Shown here piece by piece: positions 6,031-22,305 of a stretch of DNA of 64,000 bases. The DNA comes from a bacterium 336/3 (GTDB lineage: Bacteria; Bacteroidota; Bacteroidia; Cytophagales; Thermonemataceae). The stretch covers positions 1 through 64,000 of the forward strand of contig LJIE01000002.1 in assembly GCA_001281695.1 (NCBI GenBank), read 5' to 3'. Below the pieces are notes generated by a model. That model was given only the letters and a program-made list of their open reading frames with translations, made no database searches and was not told the DNA's origin. The position numbers and the translations under genes are program-made. How positions within the stretch are numbered: the stretch's first letter is position 1; every line of letters starts with the position of its first letter.

Positions 6031-6825
6031 TTAGAATTCCCAAAGATTATGTTCGAATTCCATCAATTCCATTTCAGCTTCTTGAGCTTTGTAAAGTTCT
6101 TCTATCTGATCTGTATAGATTTGATTCAAGTATTTATCATCTGGGTTAGATACTTTCAAGATTCTTGAAGAGAATACTCTCAACTCAAAGGCATCCATAA
6201 TACACATGTGTCTGCGATTATTATTAGGATTGTACCAAAGAGCTTCTTTTTGATTAGACTCTACATAAATTTGTCTGAAGTATCTATCAACTTCTTTGTA
6301 TTTGAAACTAGCTACCTCTTTATCCCCTCCACCTTCACCAAAACCAGGAGCTATTAAGTTAATAGCAATAATATTCATATACATTCTAGAACGTCTTTTA
6401 TCAAAAATAATTTCTTCTAGAATTTCCATAACATAAATATCATCTGGCTTCAACAATACTGGTGTAATCTGCTCATAAGGGTTTCCTGCCTGATCTATCA
6501 ACTTTACAGTTTCGAAACCTTTATCCCAAGCAGTATCCTTCACTAGATCTTTTTTATTCAAGAAGAGATCTGTCATACTGGTTGTGATATCATAAGCAGC
6601 TACTTTTCCTTCTTTACCTGCTTGTATTAGTCGTGCTGGAAACTCGTAGCCTACTGCTAAAAAAGGTTTGTTCTGTTTTTCTTTCAGATTAATCCTTCTT
6701 ACAACAGTTTTTCTAAACATAACATCATCTTCCAATACAGGTCTAACAGCATTAGGGTTATACCCAAACTGAGCATTTACAGAGAAGCTTACAAGAAATA
6801 ACAGAAATAAACAACACTTTTTCAT
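6031..6825 (-). CDS. gldN: Gliding motility / type IX secretion protein GldN (PorN)
   Basis: A 264-residue periplasmic protein that forms the outer-membrane-associated ring with GldK in the type IX secretion system. The N-terminal signal peptide (MKKCCLFLLFLVSFSVNAQ) is clear. The body has family features such as YDITTSMTDL and an ALWYNPNNNRR stretch. The frame extends ten codons further (to 6855), but the ATG at 6825 directly precedes the signal peptide. It is the last gene of the cluster, about 30 bases after gldM, and is followed by a strong terminator. Position and order (K-L-M-N) confirm the assignment. Confidence 0.93.
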   Translation of the reverse strand: MKKCCLFLLFLVSFSVNAQFGYNPNAVRPVLEDDVMFRKTVVRRINLKEKQNKPFLAVGYEFPARLIQAGKEGKVAAYDITTSMTDLFLNKKDLVKDTAWDKGFETVKLIDQAGNPYEQITPVLLKPDDIYVMEILEEIIFDKRRSRMYMNIIAINLIAPGFGEGGGDKEVASFKYKEVDRYFRQIYVESNQKEALWYNPNNNRRHMCIMDAFELRVFSSRILKVSNPDDKYLNQIYTDQIEELYKAQEAEMELMEFEHNLWEF

Positions 6826-6857
6826 AATATAATAAACTTTGAGTACGCAACACAATT

Positions 6858-8438
6858 TTAGTTAAGAGGAACGTTCACAATAGGGTTAGCAACTTTTGCA
6901 GGAAGAACAGAACCTCTAAAATTAGTTCTTTTAACATCTGTAACTTTGATAGAATATAAATCACCTGGTTTTGCTTTTGCAGAAAGTGATCCTAAAGCTC
7001 CTAGACCAGGGACAGTCATAACTGTTCTACCACCACTCTTTAAAGCAATACTAACACCGTCTGCTCTATAGTTAGCTTCTCTAGGTAGAGCTGAAGCGAA
7101 ATTTGGTTCAGGTTTGATAATAACAGATAGGTTTGATAAACGAGAGCTAATACCATTTGATATATCTACTTCTACACCACCCATCATTACAGCAACTCTA
7201 GCTAAAGGTACAGCTTTTACACCAAATTTACGGTCACCAACACGGCTTCCACCACTTGATACAGTCAAAACGCATTCTTTAGCTCCATCATTAGGGATGA
7301 TAATAATATCGTTTTTAGTAGAGCCTGAAACAAATGAACCACCAGAAACACCATAAGAAGGATTATAACTAGCTCCAAGTTCAGGAACACTTACTTTTAA
7401 TTCATTACCACAACCTTCATACAATGCAATAATATTAGGGTTTTCAACTACAATGTTGGGCTGAACAACTGTATATTCTTGCTTGAATGTGAAAGTTGTA
7501 TCTTTACCTTTTACTTTGGTTTTAATTTCACCATTGATGGTGTTTTTACCTGAACCACCAGCAGTAAATTCAATTTCTGCAATACCTTGAGCATTTTTCT
7601 TTAATGGAGAACCATTTAAAAATGCTTCCATAGGAATTTTATCAGATGTTGCAGCTAAGAACATAGAACCTTTGATTTTCTGACCTGTAGCCACAACAGA
7701 AGATTCTAATGAAATAAAGCCTTGGTATTGATCAGGAGAAGGAGGAACTTCGTTCACACCTACTTTCTTTACAGCTTCTGCTTCATATCTGCGAACCTCA
7801 TTTTTTAAATGAGCAAGTACAGCTATTGTAGCAGCAACTGGAGTTTGTCCAAAACTTCTGTTTGGATAATCTTTTTTCTTATCTACTTCAGTAGTACCTA
7901 TAAAGTCATTACATAAAGGTTCTAATTTGAAGCCTTTGAATTCTGCATCAACATTTTGAACAATGTTAGCAAGATCATTAGCGAAGCTATTCATTTTCTT
8001 TTGTAATGTATAACCTTCACCACCTTTGCTACCAGCTGCACCAATCATCAAACCTTCCATTTTGGTTTCACCTTGTACGTCAACTGGTTTTTTAGTTTCA
8101 GGATTAATACCTCCTGCTTTTTCTATTACCTTTTTCTCAACATCATTCAAGTAGTTAATAGCTTCTGTTGTCTTAACTCTTAAATCTTGAATAGCTTTTA
8201 CCTTTTTTAAATGTTTGGGTTCTTTATCCAATCCATCTTTTCTTGCTTGTTCTTCAAAAGCTTTTACAGCTAATCCTGTAGCTTTTTCTGATCTTGAAGC
8301 ACTTTCATCAAGAGCTTCAGCCAAGAAGAAGAACTTATCAATAATTGATGAACTTACCTGCAACGCAAGTAGGGCGGTAAGTACCAAGTACATCAGGTTA
8401 ATCATCTGTTGCCTTGGGGATTCTTTTGCACCTGCCAT
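6858..8438 (-). CDS. gldM: Gliding motility / type IX secretion motor protein GldM (PorM)
   Basis: A 526-residue inner-membrane protein with one N-terminal helix (about 15-35) and a long periplasmic part made of several beta domains. It links the GldL motor to the GldK/GldN ring. The hallmark N-terminus SPRQQMINLMYLVLTALLAL is present, including Arg9, which in Flavobacterium johnsoniae pairs with the GldL membrane glutamate for proton-driven rotation. Length is normal. It lies 88 bases after gldL and about 30 bases before gldN on the same strand. Confidence 0.95.
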   Translation of the reverse strand: MAGAKESPRQQMINLMYLVLTALLALQVSSSIIDKFFFLAEALDESASRSEKATGLAVKAFEEQARKDGLDKEPKHLKKVKAIQDLRVKTTEAINYLNDVEKKVIEKAGGINPETKKPVDVQGETKMEGLMIGAAGSKGGEGYTLQKKMNSFANDLANIVQNVDAEFKGFKLEPLCNDFIGTTEVDKKKDYPNRSFGQTPVAATIAVLAHLKNEVRRYEAEAVKKVGVNEVPPSPDQYQGFISLESSVVATGQKIKGSMFLAATSDKIPMEAFLNGSPLKKNAQGIAEIEFTAGGSGKNTINGEIKTKVKGKDTTFTFKQEYTVVQPNIVVENPNIIALYEGCGNELKVSVPELGASYNPSYGVSGGSFVSGSTKNDIIIIPNDGAKECVLTVSSGGSRVGDRKFGVKAVPLARVAVMMGGVEVDISNGISSRLSNLSVIIKPEPNFASALPREANYRADGVSIALKSGGRTVMTVPGLGALGSLSAKAKPGDLYSIKVTDVKRTNFRGSVLPAKVANPIVNVPLN

Positions 8439-8526
8439 ATATAAATGCTCTTAGTTTTTAGTTCAAAGTTTATACCAAATTTTGTATGAAGGAGTAAATT
8501 TCGTTGGAAATTTACTCTACCATGAT

Positions 8527-9333
8527 TTATGCTTGAGCTCCTTTCATAGCTGTAAGCATACCACCATATACTTTATTTAAAGAAGTTAGGTTGGTAGTTA
8601 AGCCACTTAATTGAGTTTTCAATCCTTCAGCATCTTTAGCAGTAGCAACTACATTTTCTACAAGAGAAGTCATACCACCATAGTATTTAGTCAATGCTTC
8701 GCTAAATTTCTTGCTATCTTGCAATTCCATTTGGTATGCAGCATTTAAACTGCCCAAAGTTTTTGTCAAAGATTGAATTTGGTCATGGTACGATTTTGCA
8801 TCTTTCGAAGCATCTGCCATAGCTGTCATAGCTGTCATGGTTGTACCATAAGACTTGTTCATTTCAACTAAAGAGTTTGCTGCTAATTTCACATTTTTAG
8901 CATATTCTGCAGTAGCAACAGATGCATCTCCTAAGGTAGTCATTTTGCTCACACTGTCAGAAAGTTGTTTCATACCTGAACCAAAGCTATTAACAGAATC
9001 AGCAGAGATAGAATTTGCAATATTTGCTTCAATAGCTGCTAATTTTGCAACCACACCAGCATCTTTTTGAGGTCCATCACCTACACCAGCAAGGCTCTTA
9101 GCGATTTTGTCCCAATCAGGTTCTGTATGAGGAGCATCAATCGGAGCAAACGCATACATAAAGAAAATTACTGCTTCAGTACTCAAGCCTAAGATTAGAG
9201 CAATCTCAGCACCAGGCCAGTGCATTAGTTTAAACAGGGCACCAATGATAACTACTGATGCACCTATACCAACTACTTTAGGAACGAAGTAGGTATAAAA
9301 CTTTTCTTTTCCACTTAAAACTTTGTTAGCCAT
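8527..9333 (-). CDS. gldL: Gliding motility / type IX secretion motor protein GldL (PorL)
   Basis: A 268-residue motor protein with two transmembrane helices (about 16-36 and 41-63) and a long cytoplasmic, coiled-coil-rich tail. The key glutamate is Glu53 in LGLSTEAVIFF, which corresponds to Glu49 of F. johnsoniae GldL, the residue that senses the proton gradient. His38 in FKLMHWPG matches the loop histidine of the family. The tail from about residue 80 is rich in alanine, serine and leucine with repeated helix-forming heptads. A 19-bp hairpin lies upstream, between gldK and gldL. Confidence 0.95.
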   Translation of the reverse strand: MANKVLSGKEKFYTYFVPKVVGIGASVVIIGALFKLMHWPGAEIALILGLSTEAVIFFMYAFAPIDAPHTEPDWDKIAKSLAGVGDGPQKDAGVVAKLAAIEANIANSISADSVNSFGSGMKQLSDSVSKMTTLGDASVATAEYAKNVKLAANSLVEMNKSYGTTMTAMTAMADASKDAKSYHDQIQSLTKTLGSLNAAYQMELQDSKKFSEALTKYYGGMTSLVENVVATAKDAEGLKTQLSGLTTNLTSLNKVYGGMLTAMKGAQA

Positions 9334-9394
9334 TTTAGTAAAAATTTAGTTGTAACAATTAAAGATATAGTAAAAAACTTAATTCTATATAAAA

Positions 9395-9454
9395 TTATAT
9401 TTTGTGTATTACTCTTAATAATTTTGAATTAGGATAGTAATACACAAAATATAA
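9395..9454 (-). promoter_or_regulatory. 19-bp perfect hairpin between gldK and gldL
   Basis: TTATATTTTGTGTATTACT at 9395-9413 is the exact reverse complement of 9436-9454, separated by a 22-base loop. It starts seven bases after the gldK stop and lies 62 bases before the gldL ATG. There is no long T-run after the stem on the transcribed strand, so it is more likely an mRNA-processing, stabilising or partial attenuation element than a full terminator. Confidence 0.7.
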
Positions 9455-9460
9455 CGGTTA

Positions 9461-10660
9461 TTATCTTACTCTTTTAATTTCATTTCCTGAAGAGCGACCT
9501 AAATATGTCATTGCACAACGGAATCCAATTGAAGAAGAAGTTGAATCAAAATGTTGATATGTTCTGGTACCAGTTTCTAAGAAATAAGCAATATCTTTCC
9601 AAGAACCACCTCTCACCACACGGCGAGGATATGCACCAATATTACTGTAACCAATGCTATTAGCATCTGCTTTTTTAATTTGAGGGTCAAATACAGGGTT
9701 CAAATCCCATACTGTAGGCACAGCTGCTTCATAATAAGCATCTTGACACCACTCAGCAACATTACCAGCCATATCATATAGTCCCCAGTCGTTTGAGAAA
9801 TAAGAAGCTACAGGAGCAGTATAAGAGAAACCATCATCATAATAATTACCTCTACCTGGCTTGAAGTTTGCAAGCATACAACCAAGTGTATTTCTTACAT
9901 AAGGGTTACCCCAAGGATACTTTGCTAAATTTCTACCACCTCTTGCTGCATACTCCCATTCTGCTTCTGTAGGAAGTCTGAAACGAGGGATTGTAGGTAA
10001 ACCTTGCATACCTCTGTGATAGTCAAGGTGTAAGGTTCTCCATTTGCAGAAGTCTTGAGCAGCCGTCCATTTGATACCAACAACAGGATAATCATCAAAT
10101 GCAGGATGCATAAAATAATATTCTGTCATAGGGTCTCCCATGTGGTGAGCATATTCGCTACCCCAACGAAGGCTATCAGGTAATAATCTGTTTAGAGTGT
10201 TTGTATCAGGGGTGGGAGTTAGATTTTTGAGTACGTTATCTACATAATCAGGATCTATTTGTACCCCTCCACTACTACCGCCTCTTGCATAAGCAGACAT
10301 TACGTCTGTGAACAAGCGATATTGGTTATTAGTAACCTCCGTTTCATCCATGAAGAAGGCACTAATTGTAATTTGTTTGTTGTAGTTGATTTGAGTGTGA
10401 GGTACATCCTCATCTGCTTGTCCCATGTGAAAAGTACCTGCAGGTATTACAACCATGCTTTGTGGAATATATTGATTCCAACCAGGTCTAACCACATCAA
10501 ATCGATAAATCTCTCCTTTAGAGCTTATGATACGAGCATTGAGGTCTTGATTTTTCATTGTTTTATTCTTGCCACCTCCAAGCAAACCACAACTCTGTAG
10601 GAAGATACTCCCAGCGATTAGGAAGTATAACCACACATAACGATGAATCATTTTATTCAT
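9461..10660 (-). CDS. gldK: Gliding motility / type IX secretion lipoprotein GldK (PorK)
   Basis: A 399-residue outer-membrane lipoprotein that builds the periplasmic ring with GldN. A signal peptide ends in the lipobox LQSC (Cys24). From about residue 60 the protein is a formylglycine-generating-enzyme/sulfatase-modifying fold: TFHMGQ near the start, TNNQYRLF, RLPTEAEWEYAARGG, LYDMAGNVAEWCQD and VVRGGSWKD, ending in SIGFRCAM. GldK proteins use this fold structurally rather than as an enzyme. An internal ATG at 10651 is an alternative start that would also keep the signal peptide. It follows porP after 105 bases that contain a possible own promoter. Confidence 0.95.
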   Translation of the reverse strand: MNKMIHRYVWLYFLIAGSIFLQSCGLLGGGKNKTMKNQDLNARIISSKGEIYRFDVVRPGWNQYIPQSMVVIPAGTFHMGQADEDVPHTQINYNKQITISAFFMDETEVTNNQYRLFTDVMSAYARGGSSGGVQIDPDYVDNVLKNLTPTPDTNTLNRLLPDSLRWGSEYAHHMGDPMTEYYFMHPAFDDYPVVGIKWTAAQDFCKWRTLHLDYHRGMQGLPTIPRFRLPTEAEWEYAARGGRNLAKYPWGNPYVRNTLGCMLANFKPGRGNYYDDGFSYTAPVASYFSNDWGLYDMAGNVAEWCQDAYYEAAVPTVWDLNPVFDPQIKKADANSIGYSNIGAYPRRVVRGGSWKDIAYFLETGTRTYQHFDSTSSSIGFRCAMTYLGRSSGNEIKRVR

Positions 10661-10695
10661 AACACCTTTGTATTAACATTGTTGAGTTTTCATTA

Positions 10696-10703
10696 CAAAT
10701 ATA
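10696..10703 (-). promoter_or_regulatory. Possible internal promoter of gldK
   Basis: TATATTTG on the minus strand (10703-10696) fits the -7 consensus and lies 36 bases before the gldK ATG. No TTG is correctly spaced upstream. It may give gldKLMN expression independent of porP. Confidence 0.35.
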
Positions 10704-10765
10704 GTGCTAATTTTTTCAAAAAAATTAGCAAAGAGAAAAAAATAAATTTTTTTTATTGGAAAAAA

Positions 10766-11752
10766 CTATCTAGTGCCATGTCTAGGCGTTTCCTGAGTAG
10801 GTTTTGCATAACGTTTCACAGGTAAACCATAAGACAAAAATATTTCATGAGAAGTTGGGGCTTTTCCTTGTTTACCAGAAACGGTATAGTCAAAAGCATA
10901 GCCAACTCTCATTCGGTTATCTTTAGTAGGATACATACCAATCATGGCTGTCATAGCATCAGATTGTCTATATGCAAGTCCTCCCCAAAATTTTTGATTA
11001 TAAGTTCCCAAAACAGAAAACTCTATAGATGTGCTTTTTAATCCATTTTCTGGGAGGTTTTTAATGAGAGCAGAAGGTTGTAGCAACCATTGATCATTTA
11101 ATTGATAATTGTAACCTCCAGTAAGATATAAGTTTCTAGCTAAAGCATTTTCCAACTGTTCTAACCCAAATGTAATTTGAGATTTAAGAAGATGATTGGT
11201 GCTAATTCCAACATAAAATTGTTCTTGGGAATACCAAACTCCAAATGCAAAATCTGGTTTTAATTCAGATTGTTTACCATTCAATTGTAAAGCGATTTGA
11301 TCTGATTCATCAACAAATCTGAATTTATCAAAATCAATTACTTGGTTATAAATACCTGCTCTACCACCAAAAGATAATTTTCCTTTATCTGCAATACTTA
11401 AATGATATGAAAAAGAGAGGTGAGCTTCTAAACTATTTATAGGACCTCTTACATCTCTTACTGCATGTAGTCCTATGCCAGAATTTTTCAAATAAACAAA
11501 GGGAGCTGTAACAGAAAATATTTGGGTTTGTGGAGAGCCTCCATCATCAAAGGTTGCACCATATCCTGCCCACTGAGTTCTATGCATTAATAGGAAGTTA
11601 GCTTTACCATCTGCTCCAGCAACCGCAGGATTAAGATAAAAGCTATTGAACATATATTGACTAAATTGAGCATCTTGTTGAGCTGCAACCCACTTAGGCA
11701 TTATAGTTAATAATACAATTATAGATGTAAGCTTTTTGATAATATTGGTCAT
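10766..11752 (-). CDS. porP: PorP/SprF family type IX secretion outer-membrane protein
   Basis: A 328-residue outer-membrane beta-barrel protein of the PorP/SprF family. A signal peptide (about 1-24, ending VAAQ) is followed by the family-typical opening QDAQFSQYMFNSFYLNPAVAG. The rest has alternating beta-strand patterns, including GGRAGIYNQ and MIGMYPTKDNRMRVGYAFDY. In type IX systems PorP lies beside PorK-N and is thought to anchor PorE and the ring to the outer membrane; SprF-type paralogues help secrete single adhesins. Its place directly before gldK favours the core PorP role. The C-terminal tail (about 310-328) is basic and probably periplasmic. Confidence 0.9.
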   Translation of the reverse strand: MTNIIKKLTSIIVLLTIMPKWVAAQQDAQFSQYMFNSFYLNPAVAGADGKANFLLMHRTQWAGYGATFDDGGSPQTQIFSVTAPFVYLKNSGIGLHAVRDVRGPINSLEAHLSFSYHLSIADKGKLSFGGRAGIYNQVIDFDKFRFVDESDQIALQLNGKQSELKPDFAFGVWYSQEQFYVGISTNHLLKSQITFGLEQLENALARNLYLTGGYNYQLNDQWLLQPSALIKNLPENGLKSTSIEFSVLGTYNQKFWGGLAYRQSDAMTAMIGMYPTKDNRMRVGYAFDYTVSGKQGKAPTSHEIFLSYGLPVKRYAKPTQETPRHGTR

Positions 11753-18199: not shown

Positions 18200-18215
18200 T
18201 ACTATCGCTTAATGG
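18186..18215. terminator. 30-base perfect palindrome at convergent gene ends
   Basis: CCATTAAGCGATAGT (18186-18200) is followed by its exact reverse complement (18201-18215). Both flanking genes terminate inside it, each with Ile-Lys-Arg-stop. No T-run follows on either strand, so it may act as a bidirectional stem that blocks converging polymerases or protects 3' ends rather than as a classic terminator. Confidence 0.65.
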
Positions 18216-19479
18216 GTATAATTAACTCTCTACCAGGATAAAACTCATCTTTTTCATCTACTGGAGCAATTTGATTGGCTCTTAAAATTTCAAACTTAGT
18301 TACTCCATATTTTTGTCCAATTTGCCATAGTTCTTCTCCATCTAAAACTTTATGGAAATCTCTGATAACCACTCTTAAACCTACATCAGCTCGGAGTGTA
18401 GATTTATTCGTCATTCCATTAAGTTCTTTTACATGTGAAGCACTCATATTATATATTTCTGCAATTGTTTTGAGAGTTTCACCTTTCTGTACTTTATGAA
18501 TATGTATTTTCTGTAAATTTTCAGCTTTTCCACGAGCAATTTTAGCACTATCTCTCAAATATTCTTGCTTTTTAGCCTTCTGAATTGAATCTATGCCCTT
18601 TCTTATTCTTGCTTTATCATAAAGGTCATAAGCAAGAGTATTGGCTTTATTATCATCATCAGCTACTGTAAATACTAGTAGGGCAAAAATAATACCTACA
18701 ACTCCTAAAATTATCAAAGGTAAGTGTTTGAAAGCATGTTGATCTTCTACTTCTTCTTTAGAAGTTTCTTCTGTAAGAGCAGTAGCAAATTCTTTACAAT
18801 CTTTAAATCTTTGGCTTTCAGAATTTTCTGTTGCTGCTTTAATGGCTTCTAATGTTTTTGCTGATATTTTTTTTGCTTTATGAATATCAGGGCTACCTAC
18901 AAGCATGGTAGTCAATATCTTACCTAAAGAATATATATTACTTTGAATAGTTTTTGTTCCACTTTTCTTGTCTTCAGGACTTTGATAAGCCTCTTCTACA
19001 ACAGAATTATGAACATTAAAACCTCTTACCTTTACTTGATTGCCGTCTATTAAGATATTTTGAGCACTCAGTTGTGGATGTATGAGTCCTATTTGATGAG
19101 CTGCTCCTATAATTTCTAAAATTTGAGAGAATAGGCGAAGAGCTTTATCCTCAGTCATAACTCCCAAACTCTGCACGTACTGATTGAGTGTCAGTTTGCT
19201 GTCAGGTCTTTCTGTAATAAGATACCCATTATCAGAAGTTTCAATCAAATCATAGATTAACAAAATCTGATTATGCTGAAAGTTAAGCTTTTGGCTTTCA
19301 CGCTTTAATTGTTCTTTGGCTTGGGCACTACCTATATGATTGGCATTGAGTGTTTTTACCAACACTTTTCTATCAAACAAAAGATGTTCTGCTTCATAAT
19401 AATCGAATATTTCATCAGAACTCAGATGTTTTTTTATTTCGTAATTTAATAGCCTTTCGCCAACCAAATTTGCTTTCAT
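18202..19479 (-). CDS. Transmembrane pseudokinase with two C-terminal LysM domains
   Basis: A 425-residue single-pass protein. Residues about 12-235 have a protein-kinase fold: Lys42 (VLVKTL) and Glu61 keep the ATP salt bridge, and SPED (167-170) resembles the PknB SPEQ motif. The catalytic residues are lost. HRD is His134-Pro-Gln, DFG is Gly153-Phe-Asn, and there is no glycine loop; only Asn141 of the HRDxxxxN motif remains. One membrane helix (about 254-272) is followed by a charged linker. Two LysM domains (about 326-372 and 375-423) would bind peptidoglycan in the periplasm. The topology copies PASTA kinases, but the head is predicted inactive, suggesting a scaffold or sensor. It follows the TPR gene at 19519 by 39 bases in the same direction, probably as one operon. 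Confidence 0.85.
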   Translation of the reverse strand: MKANLVGERLLNYEIKKHLSSDEIFDYYEAEHLLFDRKVLVKTLNANHIGSAQAKEQLKRESQKLNFQHNQILLIYDLIETSDNGYLITERPDSKLTLNQYVQSLGVMTEDKALRLFSQILEIIGAAHQIGLIHPQLSAQNILIDGNQVKVRGFNVHNSVVEEAYQSPEDKKSGTKTIQSNIYSLGKILTTMLVGSPDIHKAKKISAKTLEAIKAATENSESQRFKDCKEFATALTEETSKEEVEDQHAFKHLPLIILGVVGIIFALLVFTVADDDNKANTLAYDLYDKARIRKGIDSIQKAKKQEYLRDSAKIARGKAENLQKIHIHKVQKGETLKTIAEIYNMSASHVKELNGMTNKSTLRADVGLRVVIRDFHKVLDGEELWQIGQKYGVTKFEILRANQIAPVDEKDEFYPGRELIIPIKR

Positions 19480-19518
19480 TGTTGTCTTCTTTGAAGCAAA
19501 ATTAATAATTTTTATGAA

Positions 19519-19842
19519 TTAAAATAAATCGTTTTCAAACAAAAAGTTTTGATAAGCGTTGTTGAGTTCTTGCCATAGTTTTGGTTCTTTTTCTTTAGAC
19601 ATGACCTTCAAGCCTTTTTCGTAGACTTCTTTCGCTTTTTCTATTTCTTCTTTTTCTACATAAGCTGAAGCCAAATGATAATAATTTGCTGTGTATTCTG
19701 GAAAATCCGTCCAAACTTTTTCATAATAAGGTATGGCTTCATCTAAATTATATTTCCTGTATTCGGTAGCTAATGCATACCAATTGAAAGGGTCTTGAGG
19801 CTCTTGTTTACAACAAGTATGTAGCATTTCTAATCGTGTCAT
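19519..19842 (-). CDS. Short TPR protein
   Basis: A 107-residue protein without signal peptide or membrane segment. It holds about two to three tetratricopeptide repeats: NWYALATEYRKYNLDEAIPYYEKV, then YYHLASAYVEKEEIEKAKEVYEKG, each cut here only for description of the helix-turn-helix pattern at about residues 20-45 and 53-80. It is probably a cytoplasmic protein-protein adaptor. It is the first gene of the pair with the pseudokinase and is divergent from the hybrid histidine kinase with a 60-base gap. Its partner is unknown. Confidence 0.75.
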   Translation of the reverse strand: MTRLEMLHTCCKQEPQDPFNWYALATEYRKYNLDEAIPYYEKVWTDFPEYTANYYHLASAYVEKEEIEKAKEVYEKGLKVMSKEKEPKLWQELNNAYQNFLFENDLF

Positions 19843-19902: not shown

Positions 19903-22305
19903 GTGGAAAATCATCTTTATTACAATTATACAAAAGAGGAACTAATTAGAGAAATAGAAAATCTCAAAATTTTGCTCGCTAATGATGAGTTATTAGCAGA
20001 ACTTCAAGAAACGAACGTTGCATTGCAAGACTTGTTAGACAATTCGAACGATCTGATATTTGTTTGTAGCTCCAAAGGAAACTTATTATTTGCAAATAAA
20101 ATTTTTTCCACAAAACTAGGCTATCAGTTAGATGATTTGCCTTTTATTAATTTTAAATCTCTTTTAAGCCCATCTCATAAGGTTTCGTTTTTAAGACAAC
20201 TAAGTAAAGTTTTACATCAAGAAGATACCTCTAAATTCAATCTTGTATTGCTCAACAAACAAGGACAAAAGGTTTATTTAAGAGGCAAACTAAGCATCAG
20301 ATATGATGATGAGAATATTCCTGTAGCTATCAGAGGCATTATGTATGATGCAACAGATAGAGTTCGTATCCAAGGTGAGCTGACAAGTCAGACGGCTCGT
20401 TTGAAAGCCATTTTCGAGAGTGGTTCTCATATTATGTGGTCAGTAAACAGAAAACGAGAGTTTACTTCTTTTAACCAAAATTATGTAAAAGCCTTGCAAA
20501 TTCAGTATGATATTGTTCCAAAAGTAGGTAATAATTTAGATCATTTGCGTAACGCTTTAGAAAAAGAAGGTTTGGCCGATTTCTGGAAGAAAAAAATGAA
20601 AAAAGCTTTTGCAGGTGAACTACAACATTTTGAAATTCAGGCTCGTGATATTTATGGAAATCCTGTTTGGCAAGATGTTTATTTGAACCCTATCCCCTCT
20701 CCTGATGGCAGTATAGATGAAGTTTCCGCAATAGCTCATGATATTACAGAAAATAAGAAAGCAAATCAAGAAGCTTTAAAAGCCAAAGAACTTGCAGAAC
20801 ATTCTTTAAAAGTGAAAGAGTCTTTTTTGGCAAACATGAGCCACGAAATCCGAACACCTATGAATGGGATTATCGGAATGGTTGATTTACTGATAGATAC
20901 ACAACTCAATGCCACACAATACGATTATTTGCATACCATCAAAAAATCTTCTGAAACTTTGATGATTATATTGAATGATATTTTAGACCTTTCTAAAATT
21001 GAAGCTGGCAAAATGACATTGATAAACAAGCCTTTACAGGTCTACCCTATGATTGAAAAGGTCTATAATCTTTTTTTACCTCAAGCCACTCATAAAAATA
21101 ATACTCTTAGCTTTGAAATTGATGATAATATTCCCCAAACAATCATTGCTGATGAAACAAGACTTATTCAAATTATTTCAAACCTTACTTCTAATGCTAT
21201 TAAATTTACAGAGCTTGGGAGTATAAATATTAAAGTTTCTTTGTTAGAAAACTTAGAGAACGAAATGTTGATCCAAATTGATATTATTGATTCAGGCATA
21301 GGTATTTCTGAAGAAGACAAAAATATTTTATTTCAAAATTTTAGTCAATTGGATAATAGCCTTACAAAATCCCAAAGTGGAACAGGTTTAGGACTTGCAA
21401 TTTCTAAAAATTTAAGCCAGATGATGGGTGGAAATATTGGTGTAAAAAATAATTTAAAAGGTAAAGGAAGCATTTTTTATTTCACTTTTAAAGCTCAAAA
21501 AAATTTCTTAGAAGAAACTAATTATCAAAAAGTTATACAACAAAAAGATCACCCTCTGACTTTAGATTCTAAAAAAGTTTTATTGGTAGATGATAATGCC
21601 ATTAATCGAAAGGTAGCGTCAGAAATGCTCAAAAAAATTGGTTTGGAAGTTATGCTTGCCGAAAGTGGAAAAAAAGCCATTCATTTAGCAGAAAATAATT
21701 ATTTTGACGTAATTCTGATGGATGTTCAAATGCCTGAGATGAATGGTATTGAAGCTATGAAAACTATCAAAAAATTGCCCATCCAGATTCCCTATATTGT
21801 GGCTGTTACGGCTTATGCAATGCAAGAAGACAAAAATAATTTACTCATGCAGGGCTTTGATGGATATCTAGCAAAACCTATCAAATTGGAGAATTTAATA
21901 GAAATTTTTACAGAAGTAGAACCTCTAAAAACTGGAGAAAACCCAGAAATTCAAGAAATTAATTTGGATGTATGGAACTCTCTAAAAGATATTGCTGATA
22001 CTGATTTTGTACAAGAGAGTGTAGAAGATTGTATCCATGAAACAAATATTTTGATAAAAGAAATTTGGCAGTATTTTGATAATCAAGATTTTGAGAACAT
22101 TCAAAAACATTTACACACTCTCAAAGGCTCTACAGCAACTGTTGGCTTTGAGAGGTTTGCCAAACAAACAGAAAGATTAGAACAATTGATTAAACAAAAA
22201 GAATTATCTGATTTCCAATTTCATCTATCTACATGGCAAAAAGTTTGGGATAAAGCTATTTTGTCTTATTCAGATACTTTTAAAATATGGAAAGATATAT
22301 CTTAA
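19903..22305 (+). CDS. Hybrid sensor histidine kinase with receiver and HPt domains
   Basis: An 800-residue cytoplasmic phosphorelay protein. Order: an N-terminal helix/coiled coil (about 10-45), PAS 1 (about 46-155), PAS 2 (about 165-285), a linker helix, HisKA with phospho-His314 (NMSHEIRTPMNG), HATPase (about 415-530, with DSGIGIS and GTGLGLAIS), a receiver (about 560-680) with phospho-Asp607 in MDVQMPEMNG, and HPt with His738 in LHTLKGS. No membrane segment is visible, so the stimulus is probably intracellular or redox/ligand based through PAS. It carries all relay steps except a DNA-binding output, so a separate response regulator must be elsewhere. The start codon is GTG; the first base lies 22 bases after a perfect -7 box. 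Confidence 0.93.
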   Translation: MENHLYYNYTKEELIREIENLKILLANDELLAELQETNVALQDLLDNSNDLIFVCSSKGNLLFANKIFSTKLGYQLDDLPFINFKSLLSPSHKVSFLRQLSKVLHQEDTSKFNLVLLNKQGQKVYLRGKLSIRYDDENIPVAIRGIMYDATDRVRIQGELTSQTARLKAIFESGSHIMWSVNRKREFTSFNQNYVKALQIQYDIVPKVGNNLDHLRNALEKEGLADFWKKKMKKAFAGELQHFEIQARDIYGNPVWQDVYLNPIPSPDGSIDEVSAIAHDITENKKANQEALKAKELAEHSLKVKESFLANMSHEIRTPMNGIIGMVDLLIDTQLNATQYDYLHTIKKSSETLMIILNDILDLSKIEAGKMTLINKPLQVYPMIEKVYNLFLPQATHKNNTLSFEIDDNIPQTIIADETRLIQIISNLTSNAIKFTELGSINIKVSLLENLENEMLIQIDIIDSGIGISEEDKNILFQNFSQLDNSLTKSQSGTGLGLAISKNLSQMMGGNIGVKNNLKGKGSIFYFTFKAQKNFLEETNYQKVIQQKDHPLTLDSKKVLLVDDNAINRKVASEMLKKIGLEVMLAESGKKAIHLAENNYFDVILMDVQMPEMNGIEAMKTIKKLPIQIPYIVAVTAYAMQEDKNNLLMQGFDGYLAKPIKLENLIEIFTEVEPLKTGENPEIQEINLDVWNSLKDIADTDFVQESVEDCIHETNILIKEIWQYFDNQDFENIQKHLHTLKGSTATVGFERFAKQTERLEQLIKQKELSDFQFHLSTWQKVWDKAILSYSDTFKIWKDIS

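Follow-up and report, generated by a model that had tools for sequence, protein, structure and literature searches.

Most of what is known about how Ser/Thr kinases sense the cell wall comes from Gram-positive and actinobacterial species and their PASTA kinases. These kinases (PknB, StkP and Stk1, together with the PP2C phosphatase Stp1) provide the closest solved folds to the protein family described here, for which we use the name LPK, and share with it an N-terminal kinase domain, one transmembrane helix and periplasmic repeats that probably bind the wall. LPK differs from them in having neither PASTA domains nor, to judge from its residues, catalysis. EssB and YukC belong to Type VII secretion and are not known to contain a LysM domain. 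Like LPK, they are membrane pseudokinases of bacteria, and they act as scaffolds according to PMC12599244.

According to the same source, PknB phosphorylates the MviN pseudokinase of mycobacteria (ActPs3), which recruits FhaA. Bulky aromatic residues fill the ATP site of MviN and no ATP is bound, and its back-to-back dimer contact consists of L750 and D793, which correspond to contact residues of other kinases (PMC12599244). Like MviN, LPK is a membrane pseudokinase whose fold resembles that of PknB, with an aromatic residue in the loop expected to cap the ATP site and a conserved Asp at the dimer position, the latter being read via PknB; in addition, some LPK relatives have a PknB-like kinase and FHA proteins in their module. 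Compared with the description of ActPs3, LPK differs in its two periplasmic LysM domains, the missing flippase part and its PP2C and kinase neighbours. Moreover, LPK was seen in one order of Bacteroidota-type gliders, whereas MviN/ActPs3 is found in Actinobacteria. In plants, the receptors NFP and LYK3 (NFR5 and NFR1) pair a LysM receptor pseudokinase with an active kinase (PMC3672211, in part), similar to what is proposed below for LPK. This likeness would be convergent only, since the plant receptors have three extracellular LysM domains per chain, a reversed domain order and LysM on both partners.

Architecture and distribution of LPK

The window, i.e. the whole stretch of 64,000 nucleotides analysed, encodes at 18202..19479 (minus strand, as are all features of this gene) a LysM-tailed transmembrane pseudokinase of 425 residues (P0001), as delineated by its open reading frame, Pfam matches and an AF2 model. 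The kinase-like domain comprises residues 12–242 (18754..19446), of which residues 30–242 match Pfam Pkinase with 66.3 bits (cut-off 31.7). It is followed by a single transmembrane helix at residues 253–272 (18664..18723), assigned by hydropathy and modelled as a helix from 253 to 277, and by a conserved periplasmic helical linker at residues 289–317 (18529..18615), supported by conservation and by a helix in the model. LysM domain 1 (18370..18498) is a Pfam match. LysM domain 2 (18208..18354) is supported by a further Pfam LysM stretch that passes only at E ≤ 1 and by a strand-helix-helix-strand element in the model. Overall, the match to LysM (PF01476) scores 49.1 bits (cut-off 20.9), with two stretches at E ≤ 1 and one at E ≤ 1e-3, and the kinase and LysM matches are the only ones above Pfam cut-offs. 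Against the PASTA kinase equivalog NF033483 (Stk1/PknB) P0001 reaches 86.8 bits, compared with a cut-off of 450, and LysM is found where PASTA would be expected. A flippase fusion, as in the MviN of M. tuberculosis, is absent from the 425 residues.

The AF2 model (22 alignment rows, pLDDT 80, pTM 0.52) contains the two-lobed kinase pattern, the transmembrane helix, a helix at 289–317 and two strand-helix-helix-strand elements, as expected for LysM. Among the 1000 chains returned by Foldseek and aligned with VIA-align, the best match is M. tuberculosis PknB (Z 24.8, rmsd 2.9 over 227 residues), which covers the kinase part only. An earlier note, made from the sequence alone, had described a transmembrane pseudokinase with LysM domains and degenerate catalytic residues next to a TPR gene and a divergent hybrid kinase; profiles and alignment confirm this description, and the PASTA-kinase-like fold and topology that it assumed agree with the PknB match and the hydropathy.

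The family has 22 full-length members, P0001 and 21 orthologues. Searches covered 59 relatives, some with fragmented genomes, 15 genomes of a family coded f15 and, with four candidates scored per genome, 390 genomes of the order and 395 of the class. LPK was present in all 15 genomes of f15 and in seven of eight genomes of f1, the family of Raineya and its kin; the eighth f1 genome is 81% complete. No other full-length LPK was detected among the 390 sampled genomes of the order (E ≤ 1e-30) or the 395 of the class (E ≤ 1e-60), the other matches listed covering only part of the profile. Raineya denotes here the genus coded g1, consisting of the window genome G000 and of G001, G002 and G003. The LPKs of the latter three are 54–57% identical to P0001, and the architecture is kept in 18 further genomes beyond the genus. 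Pfam Pkinase and LysM were matched in 22/22 members at E ≤ 1e-3, in line with the LysM-bearing periplasmic end postulated before. A contig scan with P0001 as the only query returned no relatives, and a scan with a second query, A3, returned three loci (Raineya orbicola, Raineya sp. SKYG86 and an uncultured Cytophagales MAG).

A recent pseudogene is ruled out by open reading frames and by conservation in 22 genomes; the single stop reported, in the LPK gene of G021, is the last codon, located beyond the matched region, and is the regular termination codon of that gene. In a tree of 64 kinases, a branch (92/67; 91% of bootstraps) separates the LPK sequences from all others. As the tree program flags long branches, polyphyly masked by long branches was considered as well, and is ruled out by a tree rebuilt without 14 of the 64 rows, six of them LPK, which left the LPK branch unchanged (92/90; 94%). 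In the periplasmic linker, I292, D297, S298 and D310 are nearly invariant and S311 is invariant. A single origin of the family is supported by these sequence comparisons and fits the common linker (D297-S298, D310-S311) as well as the common aromatic loop residue described below.

Loss of catalytic residues and the nucleotide site

LPK was aligned with 42 other kinases, 31 of which have the β3 Lys, the αC Glu, the Asp at the HRD position and the DFG Asp intact and are referred to as active. In the window copy, the catalytic loop is reduced to HPQLSAQN (19057..19080; HRDxKPxN in active relatives) with H134-P135-Q136 in place of HRD, and G153-F154-N155 (19015..19023) occupies the DFG position. 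The glycine loop (residues 20–27, 19399..19422) is degenerate, with S20, D22 and F25 instead of the glycines of active kinases, F25 being at the third position. P0001 thus lacks the HRD Asp, the DFG Asp-Gly and the glycine loop by which active bacterial Ser/Thr kinases are recognised. Judged by the motifs used to define pseudokinases in PMC12599244 (in part), the window copy has lost two of three (HRD and DFG) while keeping the β3 Lys, besides having a transmembrane segment at 253–272, and other LPK members have lost all three.

Across the family, neither the HRD Asp nor the catalytic-loop Lys nor the DFG Gly is kept in any of the 22 sequences. The first loop glycine is retained in three members, the second and third in none. 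The catalytic-loop Asn and the DFG Asp persist in seven members each, the β3 Lys in 14 and the αC Glu in 15. The assignment as a true pseudokinase is hence borne out by the catalytic Asp being absent from all members, and the proposed search for an active HRD motif among the orthologues found it in 0/21. Six positions are invariant in 22/22 LPKs: Y13, H69, D77, K150, the APE Glu (E169) and R224, the helix-I Arg that is expected to form a salt bridge to E169. Comparison of the sequences establishes the architecture, the loss of catalytic residues, the conservation and the gene association of LPK.

It had been suggested that LPK may bind nucleotide since Lys42 and Glu61 are kept. Both residues are indeed present in P0001 (K42, 19354..19356; E61, 19297..19299), but this suggestion does not hold for the family, where the Lys is kept in just 14/22 members, being replaced by Gln in the congener G001, and the Glu in 15/22. 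In addition, the third loop glycine, which is Gly in 31/31 active kinases, is Phe in 18 LPKs and Tyr in the remaining four. Taken together with the precedent of MviN, the incomplete conservation of Lys and the aromatic residue in 22/22 members make nucleotide binding by LPK unlikely. The uniformity of the Phe/Tyr replacement suggests a selected new state at this position.

PknB L33 and D76 presumably lie in the back-to-back interface, and the PDB titles among our structural matches name PknB mutants of both residues; a literature search for back-to-back dimers of PknB L33D found no paper. D77 of LPK (19249..19251) aligns with PknB D76. Since an Asp is also found here in 31/31 active relatives, D77 permits a heterodimer but does not prove dimerisation. 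F35 aligns with PknB L33, and the position is hydrophobic or aromatic in 20/22 LPKs and gapped in two. Where PknB has R10, the window copy has Asn. The stretch from GFN to SPE comprises 11 residues in the window copy versus 25 in the active kinase of locus L039, and the model contains no helix at the expected place of αG. As the αG segment is missing and the activation loop is short in the Raineya LPKs, a partner surface may be lost in these proteins.

Gene neighbourhoods

A gene for a TPR protein of 107 residues (19519..19842, minus strand; Pfam TPR_19, 34 bits) lies 39 bp upstream of LPK on the same strand in the window, and a scripted count puts it 40–49 bases upstream in all four Raineya genomes. 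The earlier note regarded this protein as the partner of LPK and proposed looking for a conserved TPR neighbour. Such a neighbour exists within the genus (4/4) and is missing beyond it, the pair being confined to 4/22 LPK loci, all from Raineya. TPR homologues were found in 46 of 59 genomes, with one match each at E ≤ 1e-8, and most of these genomes have no LPK. Outside the genus, the homologue adjoins etfBA-like genes in all eight loci read (L150–L157), which are spread over the order, five of them in LPK-containing genomes (G004, G006, G021, G037 and G052); in six of the eight loci the TPR reading frame was recovered by blastp and in the other two it was placed by the genome search. The adjoining genes encode an EtfB-like protein of 245 and an EtfA-like protein of 320 residues, named from NCBIfam matches on L150 with scores below the curated cut-offs. 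The spread of the TPR gene and its etfBA-like context rule it out as a conserved LPK partner, and it lies outside the conserved system.

The divergent gene at 19903 encodes a PAS/HisKA/HATPase/REC/Hpt hybrid kinase according to profiles. It is ruled out as a conserved neighbour because the other three Raineya genomes differ, having a receiver-like gene of 144 to 194 residues on the same strand as LPK and dxr downstream (profiles on L032). In these three genomes the end of LPK and the start of dxr share 4 bp (L032 10067, L033 5148, L034 9058), which suggests translational coupling of dxr and LPK. This overlap is not found in the window copy, which meets a neighbouring gene convergently; we take the latter to be hemC-like. 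Elsewhere in the window, at 6031–11752 (minus strand), there is a Type IX secretion/gliding cluster with GldN, GldM, GldL, GldK and a PorP/SprF-family gene, each above its NCBIfam cut-off.

Beyond Raineya, neighbours were labelled by blastp against reference proteins, with Pfam or NCBIfam names for some references and copies. A related kinase, STKF, which consists of a kinase domain, a transmembrane helix and an Ig-like periplasmic domain, adjoins LPK in 10/22 genomes (G004, G006, G007, G021, G037, G052, G078, G103, G152 and G160), a raw count that represents few independent events. In six of these ten loci (G004, G037, G052, G103, G152 and G160) a PP2C phosphatase gene is found as well, split into two reading frames in G160 (L083). 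The complete run FHA / VWA-FHA / PP2C / LPK / STKF occurs in four loci (L039, L042, L082 and L087; Pfam names from L039), with an intact kinase in three of them; in G021 the FHA, VWA-FHA and PP2C genes are located away from LPK. In L088, L089 and L091, a gene of one cluster lies 103–114 bp downstream of LPK (L088 7272–8582, L089 2240–3547, L091 7100–8386), which profiles on L088 identify as a cNMP-binding protein with a SpoIIE-type phosphatase. Nine of the 22 loci, from the four Raineya and five f15 genomes (L084, L086, L090, L092 and L093), have neither STKF nor the SpoIIE-type gene, where absence is weak evidence for the short contigs L090 and L092, as it is for L083, L087 and for L089, which starts just before LPK.

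The PP2C of L039 scores above the Stp1 cut-off. A LysM match is present in the PP2C of G004 and G152, and there is no Pfam LysM match in those of L039 and L042. The VWA-FHA gene has homologues in 8/59 relatives, including G000, G001 and G002, where it lies outside the module, and was not found in G003, G004, G006 and G007. In five genomes of family f5 (L038, L109, L110, L111 and the cut locus L076), an intact STKF has as its neighbour a PP2C that carries a LysM-like tail at the C-terminus (L038 9605–11092, L109 9383–10861, L110 10054–11661, L111 2248–3897; Pfam LysM run on L038). No LPK was found in these f5 genomes; an FHA gene is nearby in three of the loci and a VWA-FHA gene in two.

STKF has the Lys, the Glu, the Asp at the HRD position and the DFG Asp intact in 12/22 LPK genomes, counting G021, where the motif is HQD and the periplasmic domain lies on a separate reading frame. 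Degenerate copies are present in G006, G007, G152 and those three Raineya genomes in which STKF was found; the copy of G078 is partly degenerate, that of G185 is cut at the N-terminus, and none was recognised in the loci examined from G003 and G140. The periplasmic domain gave no Pfam match above the cut-off in the copies scanned; its AF2 model is all-β (pLDDT 93), with two PDB matches at E ≤ 0.001. The Pkinase profile matches at seven places in the window genome, and the P0001 query recovers two further kinase-like relatives there, the fourth match being to LysM only. One of the two is the STKF of this genome (L002/L048; L048 8169–9512), with HLN, an intact DFG, a transmembrane segment and an all-β periplasmic tail. 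The other (L003/L049) is an intact kinase with an SH3 match, located beside a PP2C gene; this SH3 kinase is intact in three of the four Raineya genomes.

Proposed role of LPK

Our preferred reading, on which we would put about even chances, is that LPK is catalytically dead, probably binds no nucleotide and contributes the LysM subunit to a kinase/phosphatase module for wall sensing, comparable in principle to mycobacterial MviN/PknB, in which STKF was the ancestral partner; in Raineya, LPK has probably become a scaffold, or else the SH3 kinase uses it as a substrate. LPK would belong to the membrane Ser/Thr kinases of the PASTA-kinase-like type. In the periplasm, its two LysM domains would bind peptidoglycan, and in the cytoplasm its kinase fold would be a protein-protein module. 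Ancestrally, it would have been a LysM receptor subunit paired with STKF, probably back-to-back through the N-lobes. The PP2C phosphatase of the same operon would oppose this pair, and the FHA proteins would be its phospho-readers. In Raineya, where the module is dispersed and STKF has lost catalytic residues as well, LPK is probably a wall-anchored scaffold or a substrate of the SH3-domain kinase/PP2C pair; the scaffold role is likelier since the partner kinase has decayed, too. Peptidoglycan binding, heterodimerisation, the direction of signalling and the role in Raineya are steps which we infer. G006, G007, G152 and the three Raineya without an active STKF-type partner argue against the pairing with STKF.

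Alternatively, LPK could be a docking substrate like MviN, which a kinase phosphorylates on the juxtamembrane segment and which recruits an FHA protein to the wall without regulating any kinase. The phosphorylation of MviN by PknB and the recruitment of FhaA (PMC12599244, in part), the four loci whose run includes FHA and VWA-FHA, and at least one juxtamembrane Thr in 21/22 LPKs agree with such a function. We nevertheless regard it as unlikely, since FHA genes adjoin LPK in only 4/22 loci and the juxtamembrane segments of Raineya comprise just 17–18 residues, with no Thr in that of R. orbicola (G002). Inspection by eye of the 22 sequences did not reveal a conserved juxtamembrane Thr for FHA docking.

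It is quite unlikely that LPK is a wall anchor or a relic, in which selection acts on the LysM-transmembrane part and the cytoplasm holds the kinase domain as a stable plug that drifts towards loss. The domain is highly divergent, with αG and the activation loop shortened in the window copy, yet it is present in 22/22 members with six invariant residues (Y13, H69, D77, K150, E169 and R224), and the consistent Phe/Tyr replacement suggests a selected state. A nucleotide-binding pseudokinase scaffold that works with the TPR protein, as modelled by the earlier note, would account for K42 and E61 in the window copy and for the TPR gene upstream of LPK in the four Raineya genomes. The loss of the Lys in 8/22 LPKs, including the congener G001, and the occurrence of the TPR homologue in 46/59 genomes, mostly without LPK and beside etfBA-like genes in 8/8 loci, make this model very improbable. 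Hardly credible is a non-canonical enzyme, e.g. for AMPylation as in SelO: the kinase fold can be repurposed, as in SelO and SidJ (PMC12599244, in part), but the canonical positions of LPK do not hold a conserved set of polar active-site residues (Lys 14/22, Asn 7, DFG Asp 7).

Extending the preferred reading of a dead LysM subunit, one might tentatively picture a bacterial two-chain LysM receptor kinase, although we rather doubt this stronger version. Dead LPK and live STKF would make up an obligate heterodimer for reading peptidoglycan, with a PP2C, itself LysM-bearing in several lineages, as the off-switch. This receptor would be a convergent counterpart of plant NFP/LYK3; in Raineya the pair would be non-catalytic and signal by scaffolding alone.

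The earlier statement that this make-up had not been described agrees with our searches of titles and abstract openings in the literature on LysM and on bacterial pseudokinases, which yielded no bacterial LysM pseudokinase among the matches listed. The parts of PMC12599244 covered here name seven pseudokinase families, the review having a source study of 42 families, and a term search of it gave no words that start with LysM, Bacteroid, Cytophag, PP2C or TPR. By placing LysM on a dead kinase and, in certain lineages, also on a PP2C, next to an active kinase with FHA readers, this conserved module would represent a distinct design for wall sensing, and it would offer a tractable operon for testing the roles of bacterial pseudokinases.
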